Source: Chloroflexi bacterium HGW-Chloroflexi-2
Lineage (GTDB): Bacteria; Chloroflexota; Anaerolineae; Anaerolineales; Anaerolineaceae
Reading direction: 5' to 3'
Assembly: GCA_002840735.1 (NCBI GenBank)
Contig: PHBY01000023.1
Coordinates: forward strand, 1-48,931
DNA length: 48,931 nt
Numbering within the stretch: position 1 is the first letter of the stretch; every line of letters begins with the position of its first letter. The notes beneath the pieces were generated by a model. That model searched no databases and had not been told where the DNA came from. It saw only the letters and a list, made by a program, of their open reading frames with translations. Of the stretch, positions 14,390 to 26,346 are shown piece after piece. A program made the translations under genes and the position numbers.

Positions 14390-15796
14390 TTAGTTCTGTG
14401 GCAGCGCGGTGAAGGCATCACAATGCCCAGGGCCGATCAGACCGTTGTTGTAACTATCCAATAATCCAGCAAGAGAAATCGCATGACTGCGCACAGTTCT
14501 TGACAACTTGCTGGTGGGATTGTAATCGTCGAAGAATGTTTCCGCGGCAGTCAGGGCAGCGTCAACTTCAGGAGTGGTTCCTGCACCATTCAGCACATTT
14601 AATGTAGCAGCCAGATAGGCATGTGCCAGAATGAAATAGGCATTTCCACCAGAGGGGCTGGTCCACAAGACTTGATAATTTGATAAACCACTATGGAAGA
14701 ACAGTTCATCCTCACCCAACAATGCCCAGGCTGGATCATAACGGGCGGGACCGTACATGGAATGCGTCTTCCAGTAACCGGGGGTCAGGGAACAGCCATC
14801 CACACAGGGGACAGTCACGGTCACGGTCCAGCTGTCTGAACCGGTCTGGGTGGGATCATCGCTGGCGACGAAGGAAGCGGTGTTATCCACACCATACGTG
14901 CCACAGACACCAAAGGGACTGACCTCGTAGGAATATTCGAAGGTCTTCTGCATGTTTTCATCCAGATCACCTACACACACAGTGCCCAGGTCGCCATACA
15001 GGCTGTCAGTCAGATCGATACATTCATTGGTCACGACCATTTGATTCGACAGGGAGAAATCAGCATCCGGAGAAGGGCCAAATGGGACACCCAACCAACC
15101 GGAGTGATTGGTGATGGTCACGCGGGCATCGACTTTGTAATTAGCGCCTGGCACCGGCTCGAATTCGATTTCGAAATCGTAACAACCTTCTGCACCGGGA
15201 CCAAGCTGTTCGGCCGGGGTGATCTTGGTGGTGGCGCCGGGTAATGGTTCGAATGGTCCAGGACCATTTTTGAACAGCACCCGCGGGTTCAACTCCAGAC
15301 CTTCAGTAGGTCGATCGCCACCATTCAGGACACAGATCTGGCCTTTAACACCGGCGAACTCTTCCATCGAAGCCGTCACGACCACACTGTAATCGACGGT
15401 GGCAGTCTCACCCACATACAGGGTCAGTTCATCCACGGAACCAGTCTTCTCGATGGTCCAGTCGTAATCACGATACCAGAATCCTTTGGCTGTAATGCGG
15501 GCGCTGAGTGTGGTTCCGGCCTGACCTTGATTTTGTGGTTCAGGTGCCAGCATCAGCAGAACGGGTTCTTCTTCCATTACTTCTTCAGCTACTTCTTCTT
15601 CCAGTGGTTCTTCAACGAGCTCTTCTTCAACAGGCTCTTCAACCAGATCTTCCACCAGTTCTTCTACCAATTCATCACTGGCGATATCTTCAGGTGTTTC
15701 TTCCAGATTTGCCAACACCTGGCCGGTTCCCAGGGGAGCGACTGCGAAAGCAGTCACCAACAACAACACCAACATGGTTCGGAATAACTTAAACAT
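14390..15796 (-). CDS. Secreted protein with Glu/Val-rich spacer and C-terminal GYWK domain
   Basis: A 468-residue exported protein of unknown function. After a signal peptide (LVLLLVTAFAVAPLG, cleavage near VLA) comes a strongly acidic region (about residues 32-80) of repeated EELVEE/EEP units, then beta-rich modules with paired cysteines and a SLTPGYWKTHS motif near residue 340 leading to a helical C-terminal domain. The CxLTPGYWK motif recurs in modified form in the gene at 17548 (CSPGYWR). AAAGGGA precedes the ATG. It is expressed from the palindrome-linked promoter at 16041-16087 through a structured leader. A surface or matrix role is inferred only from secretion and composition. Confidence 0.8.
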   Translation of the reverse strand: MFKLFRTMLVLLLVTAFAVAPLGTGQVLANLEETPEDIASDELVEELVEDLVEEPVEEELVEEPLEEEVAEEVMEEEPVLLMLAPEPQNQGQAGTTLSARITAKGFWYRDYDWTIEKTGSVDELTLYVGETATVDYSVVVTASMEEFAGVKGQICVLNGGDRPTEGLELNPRVLFKNGPGPFEPLPGATTKITPAEQLGPGAEGCYDFEIEFEPVPGANYKVDARVTITNHSGWLGVPFGPSPDADFSLSNQMVVTNECIDLTDSLYGDLGTVCVGDLDENMQKTFEYSYEVSPFGVCGTYGVDNTASFVASDDPTQTGSDSWTVTVTVPCVDGCSLTPGYWKTHSMYGPARYDPAWALLGEDELFFHSGLSNYQVLWTSPSGGNAYFILAHAYLAATLNVLNGAGTTPEVDAALTAAETFFDDYNPTSKLSRTVRSHAISLAGLLDSYNNGLIGPGHCDAFTALPQN

Positions 15797-16067
15797 TTTC
15801 TTTCCCTTTCTCAGTGGTTAATTTCGTGTGATTGGTCAGCAGCGATTTTCGAAGCAGCACCTGACATAAAACAAAAAAACGGCGCCAGATGTTGGGCCGG
15901 TTTCGCCACTGGCTCCCCGGCGGAGGCTCTCTGATAGAGCCTGGCGACCAATTCATTCCGTCGGATCAACACCTCCCAAAAAAGGATATTCACTTGGTAA
16001 AGAAAATCAATGAATGCTTATAACCACACTATTTAGATAAATATTATCAAATTAAAATAGCAGAGTC
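15797..16067 (-). other. Long 5' leader of the first secreted-protein gene
   Basis: About 235 nt separate the predicted transcription start (near 16033) from the ATG at 15796. The leader contains the structured RNA element at 15873-15985; the stretch between its U-run and the ribosome binding site shows no gene. Confidence 0.65.
15873..15985 (-). ncRNA. Structured leader RNA with terminator, copy 1 (candidate riboswitch)
   Basis: Read on the minus strand: GUUGAUCC, a long stem (15957-15964 with 15917-15924), AAUUGGUCGCC, an internal 7-bp hairpin with arms AGGCUCU, then GGGGAGC and GUGGCGAAACCGG, and a GC-rich terminator stem (CGGC/GCCG) followed by U7. The same order occurs in the leaders at 17212 and 18406. 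Stem sequences differ but pair in each copy. I do not recognise it as a known riboswitch class. Confidence 0.75.
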
Positions 16068-16087
16068 AATACGTAGTTCTACGTATT
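16041..16087 (-). promoter_or_regulatory. Palindrome-linked promoter, copy A
   Basis: The operator AATACGTAGTTCTACGTATT (16068-16087; 9-bp arms, 2-bp centre) overlaps the first two bases of a minus-strand -35, TTGACT (16064-16069). A 17-bp spacer leads to TAATAT (16041-16046). Three further copies of this arrangement lie at 17370, 18563 and 18805. A dimeric regulator bound here would touch RNA polymerase at -35. Confidence 0.88.
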
Positions 16088-16124
16088 TTTGTAGAATGTT
16101 TAAGGTGGATGGGGGTTAAAAGCG

Positions 16125-16158
16125 CCCTCCCCCGCCTGGGAAGGGGTGCGGGGGAGGG
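16125..16158 (-). terminator. Terminator of the second secreted-protein gene
   Basis: An 11-bp GC-rich inverted repeat (CCCTCCCCCGC with its complement, 16125-16135 and 16148-16158) lies 52 bp after the stop codon on the minus strand and is followed by CGCTTTTAA. It insulates this gene from the promoter just beyond it. Confidence 0.75.
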
Positions 16159-16209
16159 TTGATATTCAGTTGTTATACTTGTTTCTAATTCTATTCAGTT
16201 GTAATTGGA

Positions 16210-17076
16210 TTATTCGCCACAGGGTACTGGTAATGCGATATCCATATGCACACCGTAGAAATTGTTGACAGGCACAACGATGGAACCGGTTATGGCACCA
16301 GTTTCAATGTGAGTCTTCCAGGCAAACAGACCAGGGGATGGGGTCTTGGTGGGGGCTTTGGCGTAATCCTGAACTTTCAGATTGTCATCAAACAACGGAT
16401 CATTCAGGTCATAGTAGAAAATCGCGCCACCTGTCAGGTTGACGGTGATGGTGACATATCCATCCACTGGGGCAGAGAAGGTGACGGTGCCGGCATGGAC
16501 ATAATTGGTGTAGTCGGCAATCAACTCAACTGTCTTCTCAACATCATCGTAATCCACATACATGGCCCAGTTGCCCTTCTTGACATAGCGAGCGCCTTCG
16601 GCCCAGGCAGTTTCTTCTTCGTAGCACATGCCGGGTTCGTTGTAGCAGAAGGTTGCGTGGCTGATGGCGTATGTGCCATCTGGATTACCGTCTTTGTCAT
16701 ATTTGGTCGGGGCAAACATGCCAGTGTCACTAAATACAGGTTCATCATAACAGTACACATTGGCTGCATTGCTGCCTTTCACAATGACACAAGCAACCGG
16801 CCATTTAGATGTCCAGTCAAAGCTATAGCCATCATCATTGGAGATAGTAATAACATTTCCACCATCAACAGTATAAGGACCATCATAAGTCACATCACCC
16901 CAGTTATCAAACTTGAAGTGAAAATCAGAATCACAACCTTCAACTTGCCCACACTCAAACGCTGCATCACCAGATTTCCAATCTGTATATAAAGTCGGCT
17001 CCACCGACGCAGCCATTGCCACCGTAGAGATGGCCAACACAAAAATTAATGCAATATAGATAGCTTTTGTTTTCAT
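16210..17076 (-). CDS. Secreted protein, paralogue of the product of 17548-18291
   Basis: A 288-residue exported protein of unknown function. MKTKAIYIALIFVLAISTVAMAA is a clear signal peptide; the ATG at 17076 is chosen over 17115 because AAAGGGA lies upstream and the paralogue starts identically with MKTKA. The mature part shares an ordered motif set with the paralogue: ISNDDGYSFDW, VIVKGSNAANVYCYD, FSDTGMFAPTKYD and ISHATFCYN. The C-terminal third, unlike the paralogue, has a beta-rich TVTFSAPVDGYVTITVNLTGG segment instead of the GYW domain. It sits behind promoter copy B and leader RNA copy 2. Confidence 0.82.
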   Translation of the reverse strand: MKTKAIYIALIFVLAISTVAMAASVEPTLYTDWKSGDAAFECGQVEGCDSDFHFKFDNWGDVTYDGPYTVDGGNVITISNDDGYSFDWTSKWPVACVIVKGSNAANVYCYDEPVFSDTGMFAPTKYDKDGNPDGTYAISHATFCYNEPGMCYEEETAWAEGARYVKKGNWAMYVDYDDVEKTVELIADYTNYVHAGTVTFSAPVDGYVTITVNLTGGAIFYYDLNDPLFDDNLKVQDYAKAPTKTPSPGLFAWKTHIETGAITGSIVVPVNNFYGVHMDIALPVPCGE

Positions 17077-17395
17077 TTCTTTTTTATCCCTTTCTAATTT
17101 TTTTATCATAATCATTGAACAACAAATAAACTCCCCAGTATCGATATATTTTTGGACCCCTCCCTTTCTCCAAATTGCTCGCGTTGATATAAAATTGAAT
17201 GCTTAAAATAGAAAAACCGACCATTGACTTCGGGCCGGTTTCGCCACTGGCTCCCCAAAGGATATACCCCCCTCGAACAGAGGTATAGCGACCAACATCC
17301 TATCCCTTGGATCAACGCTTCCCCACAGTGGCTGCATTTGTGAAAGATTTAACGTCCACTGTTAAATAGATTCTAACGATTCCTAAGAGAGAGTC
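17077..17395 (-). other. Long 5' leader of the second secreted-protein gene
   Basis: The predicted start of transcription near 17363 lies about 287 nt before the ATG at 17076. The leader contains the structured RNA at 17212-17332 and an AT-rich tail; no gene is seen. Confidence 0.65.
17212..17332 (-). ncRNA. Structured leader RNA with terminator, copy 2 (candidate riboswitch)
   Basis: The best-folded copy. A closing stem pairs GCCACUG (17326-17332) with CAGUGGC (17243-17249). Inside, CCAAGGGAU pairs with AUCCUUUGG, and AUACC with GGUAU in an internal hairpin. Conserved single-stranded blocks are GUUGAUCC, UUGGUCGC and GGGGAGC. GUGGCGAAACCGG then runs into a terminator, AAACCG with CGGUUU, followed by U5. 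The 3' half of the closing stem and the terminator arm are adjacent, so alternative folds are likely. Confidence 0.78.
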
Positions 17396-17415
17396 AATAC
17401 GTAGTTCTACGTATT
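17370..17415 (-). promoter_or_regulatory. Palindrome-linked promoter, copy B
   Basis: The same 20-bp palindrome as copy A (17396-17415), TTGACT at 17392-17397, a 16-bp spacer and TAGAAT at 17370-17375, minus strand. The operator sequence is identical to copies A and C. Confidence 0.87.
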
Positions 17416-17478
17416 TTTTCGATTTTTAAGGACCAATTTTCACCAAAAAAGTGGTTTTTGACCGTATAAACAAAACAT

Positions 17479-17506
17479 CCGCATCCCTGCTTCTTCAGGG
17501 ATGCGG
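17479..17506 (-). terminator. Terminator of the third secreted-protein gene
   Basis: An 11-bp perfect stem (CCGCATCCCTG with CAGGGATGCGG, 6-nt loop) follows the stop codon by about 40 bp. On the minus strand it is followed by ATGTTTTGTTTA, a moderately U-rich tail. Confidence 0.85.
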
Positions 17507-17547
17507 AGTGCTTGATGATACTCAGGCAAGCGATGAATTTTCGAAGC

Positions 17548-18291
17548 TTAGTTCAACGGGCAGCTATCTGGTACACGCGTGCCCTGGAAGTTCACATCCG
17601 GGTGGGCACGGCTCAGCAGATCACCAACGGCATTGAAGGCATCGCCACCATAGAATTGTGGGGCTTGCAGCACCTCCCATAAAGTGGGATTGGCGGTCGC
17701 GCCATTGGTGACACCTAATTTGGACAATGTTGGTTCATATCCAAAAATACTGGAAAAAGAATCTGTTGGACTATAGCCAGTGACTGCCCATGAATCCAGG
17801 TGTTGTGGTTGGCGCCAGTATCCAGGTGAGCACCATTCGCCTTCATCTTCTTTCGGATCTGGATTCCAGCAGAAGGTTACATGGCTGACTTCAGCAGGAT
17901 TTCCGCTATTATTGACTGGTGAATACAGTCCACTGTCCGAAAAAACTTGTGGATCATAGAAGAAAAGGTTAGCCGAATTACCACCTTTAACGATGACTGC
18001 ACCAATAGAATTCGGACTGGCGCTCCAGTCAAAGTAAGTCCCATCACTGTTGGAAATCACAATATTATTTGCATGCCCATCCTCGAATACAACTGGATAA
18101 GTCCCATTTTTTGAGCCTTCATCCCAACCATCAATTTTATAAGCATATAAAAAATCACCAACTGCATCACATTCTGCTACTTCTCCACCAGGTTGATTGG
18201 GGATTACTACAGGAGTTACACTGGCTGCCATACCAATGGTTGATAAAGCTAACAACATGATTAAAGATATAAATAATGCTTTTGTTTTCAT
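17548..18291 (-). CDS. Secreted protein with C-terminal GYWR domain
   Basis: A 247-residue exported protein of unknown function. The signal peptide MKTKALFISLIMLLALSTIG resembles that of the 16210-17076 product almost residue for residue, and the first 150 mature residues align with it (ISNSDGTYFDW, AVIVKGGNSANLFFYD, FSDSGLYSPVNN, VSHVTFCWN). From about residue 160 it carries CSPGYWRQPQHLDSW, related to the CSLTPGYWK domain of the 14390-15796 product. It thus links the other two proteins of the cluster: shared front half with one, shared tail motif with the other. It lies behind promoter copies C and D and leader RNA copy 3. Confidence 0.82.
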   Translation of the reverse strand: MKTKALFISLIMLLALSTIGMAASVTPVVIPNQPGGEVAECDAVGDFLYAYKIDGWDEGSKNGTYPVVFEDGHANNIVISNSDGTYFDWSASPNSIGAVIVKGGNSANLFFYDPQVFSDSGLYSPVNNSGNPAEVSHVTFCWNPDPKEDEGEWCSPGYWRQPQHLDSWAVTGYSPTDSFSSIFGYEPTLSKLGVTNGATANPTLWEVLQAPQFYGGDAFNAVGDLLSRAHPDVNFQGTRVPDSCPLN

Positions 18292-18405
18292 AATAATTCT
18301 GTCCCTTTCAGTTTACATTTACTATCTGTTTACTAACTTTTATTTCACCGATCTGCTTTACGCACTTACCTGCCTGGTTACGGCCTCACTTTTTTCTGAC
18401 TTAAA

Positions 18406-18525
18406 CAAAAAAACCGGGCCATTGTGCGGTCCGGTTTCGCCACTTGCTCCCCAGAAGACGCTCCCGATCGTCGGGACAGGCGACCAATTTCCGCCTTCTG
18501 GTTCTTCGCATACCTTGAGCCAGAA
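18406..18525 (-). ncRNA. Structured leader RNA with terminator, copy 3 (candidate riboswitch)
   Basis: The long stem pairs CCAGAAGGCG with CGUCUUCUGG (10 bp, one G-U), enclosing AAAUUGGUCGCC and a CCCGA/UCGGG hairpin. GGGGAGC, AAGUGGCGAAACCGG and a terminator (AACCGG with CCGGUU, then U7) follow. Compared with copies 1 and 2 the stems are different in sequence but equally paired, while the UUGGUCGC, GGGGAGC and GUGGCGAAACCGG blocks are unchanged. Confidence 0.77.
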
Positions 18526-18562: not shown

Positions 18563-18608
18563 ATTCTAATTATTTTCTATCCAGAGTCAATACGTAGTTC
18601 TACGTATT
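18563..18608 (-). promoter_or_regulatory. Palindrome-linked promoter, copy C
   Basis: Palindrome at 18589-18608 identical to copies A and B; TTGACT at 18585-18590, 16-bp spacer, TAGAAT at 18563-18568 on the minus strand. It drives the 17548-18291 gene. Confidence 0.87.
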
Positions 18609-18804
18609 TTTCCTGATTTTGAGGACCAATTTCTGGTGAGTTGCCTGTTTTTGGCCTCAAATCAGCCATTAAATGACAAAATCGACCTCATGATCGATTC
18701 TGTCATTCGCTCTCCGTGGAAGAAAAATGATAAAAATTCAGCGAATAAAAAATGGTGCTCCCTATCCTAAGCCGGATGTAATTTTAGTATCCCTATCCAT
18801 TTAC

Positions 18805-18851
18805 ATTTTACGGAGTCAGAATAGACGAGTCAATACGTAGTAATACGTATT
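18805..18851 (-). promoter_or_regulatory. Palindrome-linked promoter, copy D (no gene directly behind it)
   Basis: A variant palindrome (18832-18851; arms AATACGTA and TACGTATT) overlaps TTGACT (18828-18833), with a 17-bp spacer and TAAAAT (18805-18810). Transcription would run through a non-coding 190 bp towards promoter C. It lies only 13 bp from the 3' end of the BadF-type kinase gene. Confidence 0.8.
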
Positions 18852-21554: not shown

Positions 21555-22580
21555 TTAACCGTACTTGCGGATATATTCCTCTGCCTGTCTCACCAAATCA
21601 GTATTCCCAATGAATAATGATGTGCGCTGATGCAGACTGTGTGGCTGTAAATCGAGGATATCCTCAAACCCTGTCGAGGCCGCCCCACCCGCCTGCTCTG
21701 CGATGAAGGCCAGCGGATTGGCTTCATAGGTGAGGCGCAACTTGCCTTCCGGTTTGGAAATATCCCAGGGATAATAGAAGATGCCACCCGACAGCAGCGT
21801 GCGGTGGAAATCGACCACCAGAGAACCCACATAGCGCATCGAGATGGATTGGGTCTCACTGGTCATCGCCTGTAAATGTTGCGTGAACTTCTGAACCCCT
21901 GGAGACCAGCGATTAAAGTAACCCTGGTTGACGCTGTAATAAGTCGGGATATTGGGCATGCGGATATTTTCATGCGAAAGCAGAAATTCACCAATCGATG
22001 GATCCAGTGTAAAGCCATGCACTCCCTGCCCGGTGGAGTAAACAAACATCGTACTGGCGCCATACACGATGTAACCAGCCGCCACCATCTTTCTCCCATT
22101 TTGAAGACAATCCTCCTCGGTACCGCGTCCGGAAGTACTCACCCGGGAGTAAATGGCAAAGATGGTCCCCACACCTACATTGAAATCGATATTGGAGGAG
22201 CCATCCAATGGATCATACAGCAGCACATATTTCCCGGTTGGATATTGCTCCGGGATGGGGATAATGTCCTTATGCTCCTCGGATGCGATCACGGCCAAAC
22301 GACCGGTGTGATCATTGAGCATATAGAGCGTTTCATCCGCCAGCTTATCCAGTTTCATCACCTGTTCACCCTGCACATTCACATCACCGGTTTTCCCCAG
22401 AATTTGTGCCAACCCGGCTTTTGACATCTGACTGGCGATCATTTTGCCTGCCAGCGCAATATCGTACAGCAGATTGGTCAAAACACCGGTTGCTTCGGGA
22501 TGGAAGCGTTGCTGTTCCAGAATATGCCTTTCAATCGTCATGATCGTATCAATATTTGACGCGAATGGTGAACTAGCCAT
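21555..22580 (-). CDS. fbp: Fructose-1,6-bisphosphatase class I
   Basis: A 341-residue class I FBPase, converting fructose 1,6-bisphosphate to fructose 6-phosphate in gluconeogenesis. Motifs: IASEEHKD with metal-binding glutamates, [11 protein letters not shown] (the metal/phosphate site), [16 protein letters not shown] and [15 protein letters not shown]. The ATG at 22580 is chosen because GAGGAG precedes it and MASSPF gives the normal family length; the ATG at 22628 adds 16 residues without a binding site. A separate promoter is probable at 22684-22711. A cysteine-containing redox loop of chloroplast enzymes is absent. Confidence 0.96.
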
Positions 22581-22683
22581 GAAAATTTCTCCTCTAAATG
22601 TGTTAAATGAGTTGAGCAAGGCTGACATACTAACAATCCCTCACAGGATTTCTCCTGAAGGATCAACCCAACCTCTACTTAAG

Positions 22684-22785: not shown

Positions 22786-23829
22786 CTATTCATCGACCAA
22801 AATTTCAGGATGGATTGCCATTTTAACGACCGGTTTCTGATATTCCGCCAGTTCGGTATGCATTCTTACTTCACCTCTGGTTTTGCGAACATATAGGACA
22901 GTCAAAATCGATCCAACCAGGAAGGCAAAGATCCCCACCAGTCCCGCTTCTGGGCCAAAAGCGCCACCGGTCAATAGATCCGGACCCCCCTGCAGGATAC
23001 TTATGATGCTGGTTCCACTTTTGGATCCACTGACCGGGAAGCCAAACACATTGCCCTGAAAGAAATTCCAGGTGATGTGTAATCCAATCGGGATGGCCAG
23101 TTCGCCGGTCAACACAAACCCCAGCCCCAGGAACAGCCCGGACAGAATCAAATTCAGGGTCGAGATCCATGAGGAGTTCGGGTTGGCTGCATGCAACAAA
23201 CCGAAAACAGAAGAGGAGATCAGGTAACCCGCCCACAAACCACCGCCTTTACCCAGAATGCCCCAATTCAATCCTTCTGCCAGATTGCGTAGATGATAGC
23301 CACGGCTTAACATTTCTTCATAGATGCCTACCGCGATGAACCCCACCAGCGCTGCCAGCCAACCGCTCAGGAAGGAATTTCCAATGGAGTGGAAGGTGTC
23401 TTCAATCGTGATCCAACCCGCTGCCAGTTCAATTACGAAGATCAGTAGCATTAGAATCGCGCCTAACCCCAGCCCGAAGCCCAGATCCAGCCACCACTGG
23501 CGAGAAAAGTGAAATCCAAAATCCACAAACTTGCGCCGGTCCAGTAGCCAACCAGCCAGCAAAAAGGTCAGAAAAATGACCACCACCGTAGCGACCCCAT
23601 TCAGGGCAAAAAACCACCCCCCTCCCAGGCTCATCATCACATCCATCAATGCATCCTGATTGAGCAGCAAATCCAGATCAGCCTGTCCACTGGCAGACAT
23701 GATCAGCATCGCAATAACCCCCAGCACCGTACTGATGAGGGTTAATCCCACCAGGAACAAACCGCCCTGGATCAGGATACGCCACAAGGCGCGAATTCGT
23801 TTTTGTTCATGGTTATAGAATGGGTTCAT
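22786..23829 (-). CDS. CPBP family intramembrane metalloprotease
   Basis: A 347-residue multi-pass membrane protein with about eight hydrophobic segments. The CPBP (CAAX protease/Abi) motifs are present in order: YEEMLSRGY (EExxxR), FGLLHAANPN (FxxxH) and LHITWNFFQGN (HxxxN), between roughly residues 168 and 265. The family cleaves or processes membrane-bound substrates and includes Rce1-like and bacteriocin-immunity proteins; the target here is unknown. AGGAG precedes the ATG. It starts 13 bp after the URO-D-like gene on the same strand. Confidence 0.92.
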   Translation of the reverse strand: MNPFYNHEQKRIRALWRILIQGGLFLVGLTLISTVLGVIAMLIMSASGQADLDLLLNQDALMDVMMSLGGGWFFALNGVATVVVIFLTFLLAGWLLDRRKFVDFGFHFSRQWWLDLGFGLGLGAILMLLIFVIELAAGWITIEDTFHSIGNSFLSGWLAALVGFIAVGIYEEMLSRGYHLRNLAEGLNWGILGKGGGLWAGYLISSSVFGLLHAANPNSSWISTLNLILSGLFLGLGFVLTGELAIPIGLHITWNFFQGNVFGFPVSGSKSGTSIISILQGGPDLLTGGAFGPEAGLVGIFAFLVGSILTVLYVRKTRGEVRMHTELAEYQKPVVKMAIHPEILVDE

Positions 23830-24810: not shown

Positions 24811-26346
24811 TTACAAATTCTCCGACCAAAGTGTGACCCGATTTCCCCCGGATTTTCGGGAAATTTCGAGCGCTTTTTCAGCCCTGGTCAATAGATCATC
24901 TTCCTGTTCAGCGTGCAGCGGGTAGACAGCAAGCCCGATGGAAACTGTCAGGTCGATTGTTTGATCCTTCCATTGAATGGGTTGATTGCCGATGGCTTGC
25001 CGCACTCCATCAGCCCGGGTCAGTCCTGAATCCTTCGGGTCGTCCGGTATCAACAGCAAAAAAGCATCATTGGCATATCGAAAAGCCAGGTCATACCGCC
25101 CCAGAGATTGCTTGATCACGTTCGCAATCGCCTGCAACAGGTCATCGCCCGCCGAACGACCATAGCGGTCGTTGATCGCGCTGAAATGATCGACATCGAT
25201 CAGCATCAAGATCAAGGGGTTTCTTGCCCGGGCAGCGCGCAAGATCTCACGCGGCAGGATTTCCATCAGGTAGGAGCGAGTGTATAACCCGGTCAGGTGA
25301 TCCAGCCTGCTCTGCTCCTGAAGTTGATCATTCAATCTGGCCAATTCATCCTTTAGCGCCTGCATCTGCTGGTTGGCTTGCTTTACCTCATTTTCCAGCA
25401 GCTTGCGGCGGGTGATGTCCTCCTCGAATGCCAGAAAATGAGCCGGCTTGCCGCCCGCGTCCAGCAAGGAAGAGATCCTCGCGCCGATATAAACGATCGA
25501 ACCATCTTTGCGGCGGTTAACCAACTCCCCCACCCACTGCTCACCCGCGCGGATGGCTTTCCACAGATAATCATAAAACTCCACTGGCGTGAATTCGGTT
25601 TTGAACATGCGCGGGTTTTTGCCCAGCAGCTCATCGGCGGCATAACCGGTTAATTTGCAAAATTGGGCGTTCACATACTCAATGGAGCCGTCCAGATCGG
25701 TGATGAAGGTTGGTAACGGGCTTTGCTCGACGATGGACCTGAATTTTATTACGTCATTTTCAATCTGATCTCGCACCTGATTGGTGCTGCGCGCGATTTC
25801 CAACCCCTGGGCAAGCGCTCGATAAGCCAACACCCCGAACAGGCCGAGCAACCCCAGGATGAATACCAGGCTGAACCAGCTGGTGTACCAGTCCGGTAAA
25901 TTTGGCGCTGGAAAAACGGGTGGAATGATTTCTGTCCACATAAAGACAATCAACAGGATGCTGTACACAAATAACCACACACTGGTTTTGGGTGAAAATA
26001 TGATCCCTGCAATCAGGAAATAAAAAACCACGAACAAAATGGTCGGAAGCAGGCTGCTTCCTTCAAACAACAGAGATGCTGTCAATAAACCATACCCCTG
26101 AATCATAAAGAGAACAGCCGGTGGCAAATAGGTATTGTTTCTGAGCCGCTCGAAGCAAATGAAAAGCATGATTGCACTAACAATCAAACCCGCCATGATC
26201 GCAAATTCCCTGGCAAGCAGGGTCAGGATTACGGAAATTAATACAAATAAAAATGTAAACAGGGTAACAGGGAGAAGGAGTTGCGTTTTAATGTGCTTTT
26301 CTTCTTCTCCTGCTTTTATGAGATCAGGTAGTCTGGATTTAATCAC
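24811..26346 (-). CDS. Membrane PAS-GGDEF protein with degenerate GGDEF motif
   Basis: A 511-residue signalling protein. Six or so N-terminal membrane segments (about 20-180) are followed by a PAS domain (about 205-320: FRSIVEQSPLPTFITDLDG, RKDGSIVYIGARISSL) with a PAC tail, a short coiled coil, and a GGDEF domain from about 345. The first metal ligand (LIDVDHF) is present, but the signature reads RYANDAF where RYGGDEF is expected: both glycines and the catalytic glutamate are lost. Diguanylate cyclase activity is therefore improbable; a regulatory or GTP-sensing role is possible. GTG start at 26346 with AAGGG upstream. Confidence 0.88.
   Translation of the reverse strand: MIKSRLPDLIKAGEEEKHIKTQLLLPVTLFTFLFVLISVILTLLAREFAIMAGLIVSAIMLFICFERLRNNTYLPPAVLFMIQGYGLLTASLLFEGSSLLPTILFVVFYFLIAGIIFSPKTSVWLFVYSILLIVFMWTEIIPPVFPAPNLPDWYTSWFSLVFILGLLGLFGVLAYRALAQGLEIARSTNQVRDQIENDVIKFRSIVEQSPLPTFITDLDGSIEYVNAQFCKLTGYAADELLGKNPRMFKTEFTPVEFYDYLWKAIRAGEQWVGELVNRRKDGSIVYIGARISSLLDAGGKPAHFLAFEEDITRRKLLENEVKQANQQMQALKDELARLNDQLQEQSRLDHLTGLYTRSYLMEILPREILRAARARNPLILMLIDVDHFSAINDRYGRSAGDDLLQAIANVIKQSLGRYDLAFRYANDAFLLLIPDDPKDSGLTRADGVRQAIGNQPIQWKDQTIDLTVSIGLAVYPLHAEQEDDLLTRAEKALEISRKSGGNRVTLWSENL

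Follow-up and report, generated by a model that had tools for sequence, protein, structure and literature searches.

Leader RNAs of the c-di-GMP-II type in an A69 form, most likely ON switches, precede genes for predicted exported proteins in an Anaerolineaceae bacterium

Riboswitches of class II for cyclic diguanosine monophosphate (c-di-GMP) have been described with respect to ligand contacts, direction of switching and arrangement. In the solved class II aptamer the ligand is contacted by A13, A14, U37, G39, U60, A61, C68, A69, A70, C71, C72, G73 and A74 (PMC7288161). The class II switches of Clostridioides difficile act on transcription in the ON direction, with surface proteins, pili and the CmrRST regulators as their targets (PMC11477304; PMC8844915), and the passages of PMC3649979 on quantitative reverse transcription PCR and Northern analysis agree with this direction, although one figure legend of the same paper words the opposite. 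In the cmrRST region a class II switch and a response regulator share one operon, with CmrR at a separate downstream promoter (PMC8844915), and tandem c-di-GMP-II arrangements have been reported as 59 doublets and 9 triplets, most of them upstream of a surface anchor gene (PMC9481103). Here we analysed a stretch of 48,931 nucleotides (contig PHBY01000023.1; hereafter the window) from an uncultured Anaerolineaceae bacterium, HGW-Chloroflexi-2, which carries on its minus strand three leader RNAs (leader 1, 15873-15985; leader 2, 17212-17332; leader 3, 18406-18525). With high confidence we regard these leaders as c-di-GMP-II type riboswitches of a form with A at residue 69 (the A69 form), acting as ON switches by antitermination for exported-protein genes.

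The whole window was scanned with cmscan at the gathering thresholds (40 bits for RF03169; 53.5 bits for RF01786, c-di-GMP-II), and exactly three matches were obtained, all to RF03169 (c-di-GMP-II-GAG) with E values from 3.6e-07 to 3.2e-05, the score of each leader exceeding the cut-off (Table 1). An earlier note on this DNA had placed the leaders correctly, and the common blocks that it had pointed out, TTGGTCGC, GGGGAGC and GTGGCGAAACCGG, are present in all three; its proposal of a candidate new riboswitch class has to be given up, since the Rfam search named there as a check returned a significant match to an existing family for every leader, the very outcome that the note had held to speak against a new class. 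As a sample of relatives we used 61 genomes (the own genome and others of the genus, family and order), in which RF03169 matches taken at E up to 0.01 numbered 91 in 33 genomes. The 43 matches above the cut-off and the 48 below it carry the same 3' core. These 48 low-scoring matches could be cited in favour of a new class, but the three window copies all lie above the cut-off and agree with c-di-GMP-II in helices P1, P2 and P3, in the pseudoknot and in the core residues that were tallied, leaving a new class with virtually no chance.

Table 1. Features of the window; R1 is our own covariance model, with all three window copies among its training sequences.
Feature	Positions	Strand	Remarks
Exported-type protein, 468 amino acids, under leader 1	14390-15796	-	no Pfam or NCBIfam match
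Intrinsic terminator, leader 1	15873-15903	-	-9.8 kcal/mol, run of 7 T
c-di-GMP-II type aptamer, leader 1	15886-15985	-	RF03169 50.8, RF01786 50.3, R1 78.2 bits
Promoter TTGACT-17-TAATAT, leader 1	16041-16069	-	promoter scan
Dyad TACGTAGAACTACGTA, leader 1	16070-16085	-	abuts -35 box
Exported-type protein, 301 amino acids (288 from likelier start 17076), under leader 2	16210-17115	-	no Pfam or NCBIfam match
Intrinsic terminator, leader 2	17212-17241	-	-10.9 kcal/mol, run of 5 T; 5' arm AAACCGGCC
c-di-GMP-II type aptamer, leader 2	17225-17331	-	RF03169 43.2, R1 73.9 bits
Promoter TTGACT-16-TAGAAT, leader 2	17370-17397	-	promoter scan
Dyad TACGTAGAACTACGTA, leader 2	17398-17413	-	exact dyad search
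Exported-type protein, 247 amino acids, under leader 3	17548-18291	-	no Pfam or NCBIfam match
Intrinsic terminator, leader 3	18407-18437	-	-11.2 kcal/mol, run of 7 T; 5' arm AAACCGG and on
c-di-GMP-II type aptamer, leader 3	18422-18522	-	RF03169 46.5, R1 73.4 bits
Promoter TTGACT-16-TAGAAT, leader 3	18563-18590	-	promoter scan
Dyad TACGTAGAACTACGTA, leader 3	18591-18606	-	exact dyad search
Fourth dyad TACGTATTACTACGTA with TTGACT-17-TAAAAT	18834-18849	-	about 190 bases with two hairpins downstream

The layout of P1, P2, P3 and pseudoknot known from RF01786 is found in the leaders, and covariation was examined in the 91 matches after alignment with MAFFT, using the pairs of the Rfam layout and 200 shuffles as control. 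Pairing was observed in 90.3% of the cells against 69.9% after shuffling, and two-sided changes in 422 cells against 136.5, a level reached by none of the 200 shuffles; a structure model had been used to find the matches, so that these figures carry some built-in lean towards that structure. Two-sided change was seen at 18 of the 21 pairs, the pseudoknot was paired in 99.6%, and the 43 matches above the cut-off gave by themselves the same covariation picture. In a separate count on a 38-row alignment, 91% were paired against 32-45% for slid-partner controls. The stems previously described as varying in sequence while staying paired are therefore real, with compensating changes across the 91 matches, and covariation, which was to be looked for in further copies, is strong. 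A suggested pairing of GGUCGC with GCG-AA-ACC stood in one half only: CGC/GCG is the known pseudoknot, and the columns of GGU/ACC do not vary at all in the 38-row alignment, so that covariation is silent on this half.

In the contact region the consensus of RF01786 reads GUGCAACCG, that of RF03169 GGCGAGACCG, and the window copies GGCGAAACCG. Residue 69 is A in all three window copies and in every one of the 91 matches from the order, at the position where the RF03169 consensus has G; the "GAG" of the family name would refer to positions 69, 70 and 73. In the contact tally C71 and C72 were fixed by the pattern, the best-fitting place was taken where several fitted, and the sequences of all 91 tails agree with this reading. 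A61 was kept in 90 matches, A69 in 91, A70 in 90 and G73 in 91, and the contact residues A61, A69, A70, C71, C72 and G73 of RF01786 are found in the leaders. Since A69 is present throughout and is also the residue of the solved c-di-GMP-II aptamer, c-di-GMP is the most likely ligand, and the RNAs of the window appear best called c-di-GMP-II type, A69 form.

In order to place residue 69 within the phylum, a 19-base core allowing A or G at this position was searched for in 301 genomes of Chloroflexota. It gave 33 matches in 19 genomes (28 A69, 5 G69) against 23 for the reversed control, the core by itself being unspecific; in view of this control, 20 of the 33 were taken for a check against Rfam, and among the other 13, ten belong to the 91 matches and three lie outside both sets. 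Rfam support was obtained for 17 of the 20, namely 14 A69 and 3 G69 aptamers, the latter all matching RF03169 (60.3 and 54.6 bits in genome G242, 63.3 bits in G225). The three others (G69 in G275 and G232, A69 in G175), without Rfam support and with R1 scores of 11-13.5 bits, were taken as chance. Three A69 loci of G219 passed the RF01786 cut-off (59.9, 53.9 and 53.7 bits) and A69 loci of G225 and others that of RF03169, indicating that the two families are not cleanly split by residue 69. Both Rfam-supported forms, four A69 and one G69, occur together in G225 (L175-L179), a natural place to compare ligand preference.

The window leaders might still be a true GAG variant with a ligand other than c-di-GMP, as RF03169 is the sole gathering-level match in the window and the pseudoknot contains U39-A68, as in RF03169, where the RF01786 consensus has G-C. 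This reading is improbable in view of the constant A69 in the order and of the G69 form as a separate thing elsewhere in the phylum (3 of the 17 supported aptamers). Moreover, position 68 and its pseudoknot partner 39 have both changed with respect to RF01786, so that U39-A68 can be read as a compensated base pair. A different ligand on the strength of the GAG label was thus judged unlikely from position 69.

Each leader ends in a hairpin with a T-run, as had been claimed; the motif AAACCGG, previously assigned to every 5' arm, begins this arm in leaders 2 and 3 but not in leader 1, where the bulged 5' arm begins at the second C (C72) and overlaps C72-G73 together with the 3' strand of P1. The best whole-leader fold includes the terminator in leaders 2 and 3. 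A generic terminator scan, which requires perfect stems and loops of 3-8, listed none of the three. With a rule designed for the overlap (a hairpin of -6 kcal/mol or lower, with two or more of C71-G73 in its pairs and a T-rich stretch behind it), a terminator re-using the C71-G73 stretch was detected in 75 of the 91 matches against 30 of 273 shuffled tails. The strand overlap found in the leaders supports the suggestion of a riboswitch with terminator platform and antitermination logic. Without ligand, the bases at and behind ACCGG would pair with the downstream strand and transcription would stop at the T-run; with c-di-GMP bound, the pseudoknot (UCGCY with RGCGA), the contacts around A69-G73 and helix P1 would hold that stretch, the terminator would be blocked, and the exported-protein gene would be transcribed, the behaviour of an ON switch. 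As bound aptamer and terminator compete for the same stretch, binding should permit transcription, and the direction is most likely ON, with the genes on when c-di-GMP is plentiful.

Several observations weigh against the assignment as A69-form ON switches. Neither Rfam family fits in full: the consensus G69 of RF03169 is missing, leader 1 scored 50.3 bits with RF01786, below the cut-off of 53.5, and leaders 2 and 3 gave no listed match to RF01786 in the Rfam scan of the window. The contacts C68 and A74 are mostly replaced, by A68 in 88 and by G74 in 78 of the 91 matches, position 74 departing from the listed contact A74 in the RF01786 consensus itself as well; A13, A14, U37, G39 and U60 lay outside the tally, the numbering being not safely transferable. 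The best whole-leader folds, by a method that cannot hold a pseudoknot, are without the full aptamer, and that of leader 1 is also without its terminator. Finally, 16 of the 91 matches, including three aptamers of an array on contig C14 of this genome, have no overlapping terminator by the rule used, which means that other platforms may exist. The fold of leader 1 without its terminator and these 16 matches can be cited for c-di-GMP-II type switches that act as OFF switches or via translation, but the bases held by the bound aptamer overlap the terminator arm in each of the three window leaders, and the class II switches of C. difficile are ON switches (PMC11477304); we therefore consider the OFF or translational mode very improbable.

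The claim that all three leaders control exported proteins agrees with our results as predicted export, a hydrophobic signal-peptide-like N-terminus being found in all three products by a hydrophobicity rule. The gene of leader 3 is a paralogue of that of leader 2 (45% over 151 amino acids). A short T/SPGYW(K/R) stretch occurs in the proteins of 14390-15796 and 17548-18291, with otherwise no convincing similarity. In the whole sample of matches, a strongly hydrophobic N-terminus was found for 54 of 82 distinct first downstream genes against 63 of 185 other open reading frames of the same loci, the first genes having been picked by script with a few doubtful choices, for example an 86-amino-acid frame in L054. 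Matches to Response_reg and to Trans_reg_C were found for 22 first genes each, and others encode subtilases (5), DUF11 proteins (4), sugar transferases (2) and prealbumin-like proteins. Five doublets and two triplets were counted among the 82 leaders of this sample.

The genome carries six class II leaders with nine aptamers. On contig C11 (L017:2888-7349) a sortase gene, a tandem switch pair and an OmpR-type regulator gene are followed by genes for exported proteins with TPTNTP repeats, of which the second has a switch to itself, and this looks like a c-di-GMP-controlled surface locus; near the C-terminus of these exported proteins an IPVTG stretch resembles, by eye, a sorting motif. The array on C14 (L016:2842-3172, G000:C14:311841-312171, G000 being this genome) consists of three nearly abutting class II aptamers, no terminator being found between them, and the gene behind it encodes a surface protein for which DUF11-like and SdrD_B matches were obtained. 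In G001, the sister genome, the orthologous array has lost the core of its third aptamer, and the stretch behind the array is kept; a conserved platform was rejected there, as this stretch, although kept in two genomes, does not exceed shuffles in folding (z 0.12). At L070:3001-3393 (G033:C13:222853-223245) a response regulator gene is preceded by a series of three complete switches, all of them with a terminator. The window also encodes, some 6 kb away from the switches, a PAS-GGDEF protein (24811-26346) that is likely to be a diguanylate cyclase, and this is the one GGDEF match in the window among 16 in the genome.

The promoter of each window leader has the form TTGACT-N16/17-(-10 hexamer), with the dyad TACGTAGAACTACGTA directly upstream and abutting the -35 box, a feature that the earlier note did not mention. 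The centre of TACGTAG-N2-CTACGTA lies about eight bases upstream of the -35 box, a position as expected for an activator at the -35 region. Except where mismatches are stated, the dyad results refer to exact matches. Six copies of TACGTANNNNTACGTA were found in the genome against none for the reversed control: three before the window leaders, one before the C14 array, and two more at 18834-18849 and at C6:3580, the latter between a gene pair for a CHASE4-HAMP-PAS-HisKA_3 kinase and a NarL-type response regulator and a set of two TadE genes and a Tad gene. Thus a class II leader follows four of the six dyads, and of the six class II leaders in this genome four have a dyad, the two C11 leaders being without one in the exact search. 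At the C6 locus (L139:396-9877), where the regulator is encoded at G000:C6:2879-3517, kinase, regulator and dyad are followed by two TadE/Tad-like gene sets, the second recognised by eye.

Exact dyads occur in three of the 61 genomes, and the combination of dyad and -35 box is confined to two. Three of the four dyads of G001 have comparable surroundings: one belongs to the orthologous aptamer array, one to the same regulator-tad junction and one to a further tad-like locus (tad genes by eye). A -10-like hexamer lies 22-23 bases past the dyad in nine of the ten dyads of the two genomes, with or without a -35 box, and is top-scoring in seven of the nine and tied with another in two (16070 and the G001 regulator-tad site). 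The dyad on contig C36 of G001, inside a reading frame and without a -10 box at 22-23 bases, was taken as chance, as were two dyads of G039 for which the best -10-like hexamers lie 17-19 or 29-31 bases away (27-30 on the other strand). With one mismatch allowed, the dyad pattern was not above the reversed control in this genome (7 against 16), and with two mismatches in five relatives it was below it.

From this arrangement a second, less certain layer of control is suggested, in which the NarL-type response regulator, whose gene lies beside another copy of the dyad, would act through the dyad on initiation at the same promoters; this neighbouring regulator is the natural candidate for binding the dyad. 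A two-input regulon is plausible, in which a response regulator would act at the promoter and c-di-GMP would act at the terminator. In its full form, the CHASE4 histidine kinase and the NarL-type regulator would activate via the dyad and c-di-GMP would then gate read-through, an AND logic that would require both an outside signal and high c-di-GMP for the exported-protein genes, with the TadE/Tad pilus-type locus beside the regulator answering to the first input alone. We put this form forward tentatively, at just short of an even chance. Relatives of the regulator (E up to 1e-50) were found in 14 of the 61 genomes, only two of which have the exact dyad; in G006, with the response regulator at 95% identity, the contig ends just behind the gene, so that this genome does not bear on the dyad.

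The leaders could also be ordinary c-di-GMP-II switches with the dyad as a shared relic of duplication or as a site for an unrelated repressor, a serious if somewhat doubtful possibility. The genes of leaders 2 and 3 are paralogous to each other, upstream of the dyads the sequences are similar by eye, and both the confinement of dyad plus -35 box to two genomes and the one-mismatch count agree with a relic. Exact dyads, however, are also found ahead of genes with no relation to these (C14 array, tad genes), and the -10-like hexamer keeps its distance of 22-23 bases in nine of ten cases, even where the -35 box is missing.

The fourth dyad promoter of the window (18610-18850 region) lies just behind a BadF-type gene, and one of the two strong hairpins downstream has 17 pairs. 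As a fourth riboswitch this unit was rejected, no match to a c-di-GMP family being found in Rfam at E up to 5 or with R1 at E up to 10; it is possibly a small RNA or a relic. A further R1 match in the window (22819-22863, 12.6 bits) was taken for chance, and a match in the own genome at C1:820-889 was discarded as it falls in 23S rRNA. The host genome comprises 4.1 Mb in 40 contigs and is 99.87% complete. For the fructose-bisphosphatase of the window (21555-22628) the nearest named records are metagenome assemblies of Anaerolineaceae and Chloroflexi, with 97% to HGW-Chloroflexi-3, and a plasmid origin of the window was set aside, as no match was found in a plasmid collection (near mode).

The RNA is thus of a known kind, a candidate new class being corrected to an existing one, and the arrangement of operator plus switch is the part worth following. 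The Rfam label GAG covers RNAs of this order with the ordinary c-di-GMP-II residue at position 69, and the logic of ON switches for surface proteins in clostridia would be extended to Anaerolineaceae, in which the control of adhesion has, to our knowledge, received little study. The operator common to these promoters suggests a regulator that can be tested. In the open-licence literature, as far as its available passages go, no paper was found to report class II switches in Anaerolineaceae or an operator common to several class II switches.

In comparison with the known systems, the leaders share with c-di-GMP-II (RF01786) the layout, the six core residues and ON-type targets such as surface proteins and response regulators; they differ in the pseudoknot, which has U39-A68 and G41-C66 where RF01786 has G-C and A-U, in G74 in most copies, and in the score of leader 1 just under the cut-off. 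With c-di-GMP-II-GAG (RF03169) they share scores above the cut-off, the GGUCGCC-type loop strand and the GGCGA strand, the difference being A instead of the consensus G at position 69. As in the tandem arrangements of PMC9481103, doublets and triplets are found here too, some ahead of surface-protein genes, the C14 array differing in its nearly abutting aptamers without a detected terminator between them. The CmrRST region of C. difficile resembles this system in combining a class II c-di-GMP switch with a response regulator on one operon; there CmrR acts at a separate downstream promoter (PMC8844915), whereas here the dyad stands on the promoter that makes the switch itself.

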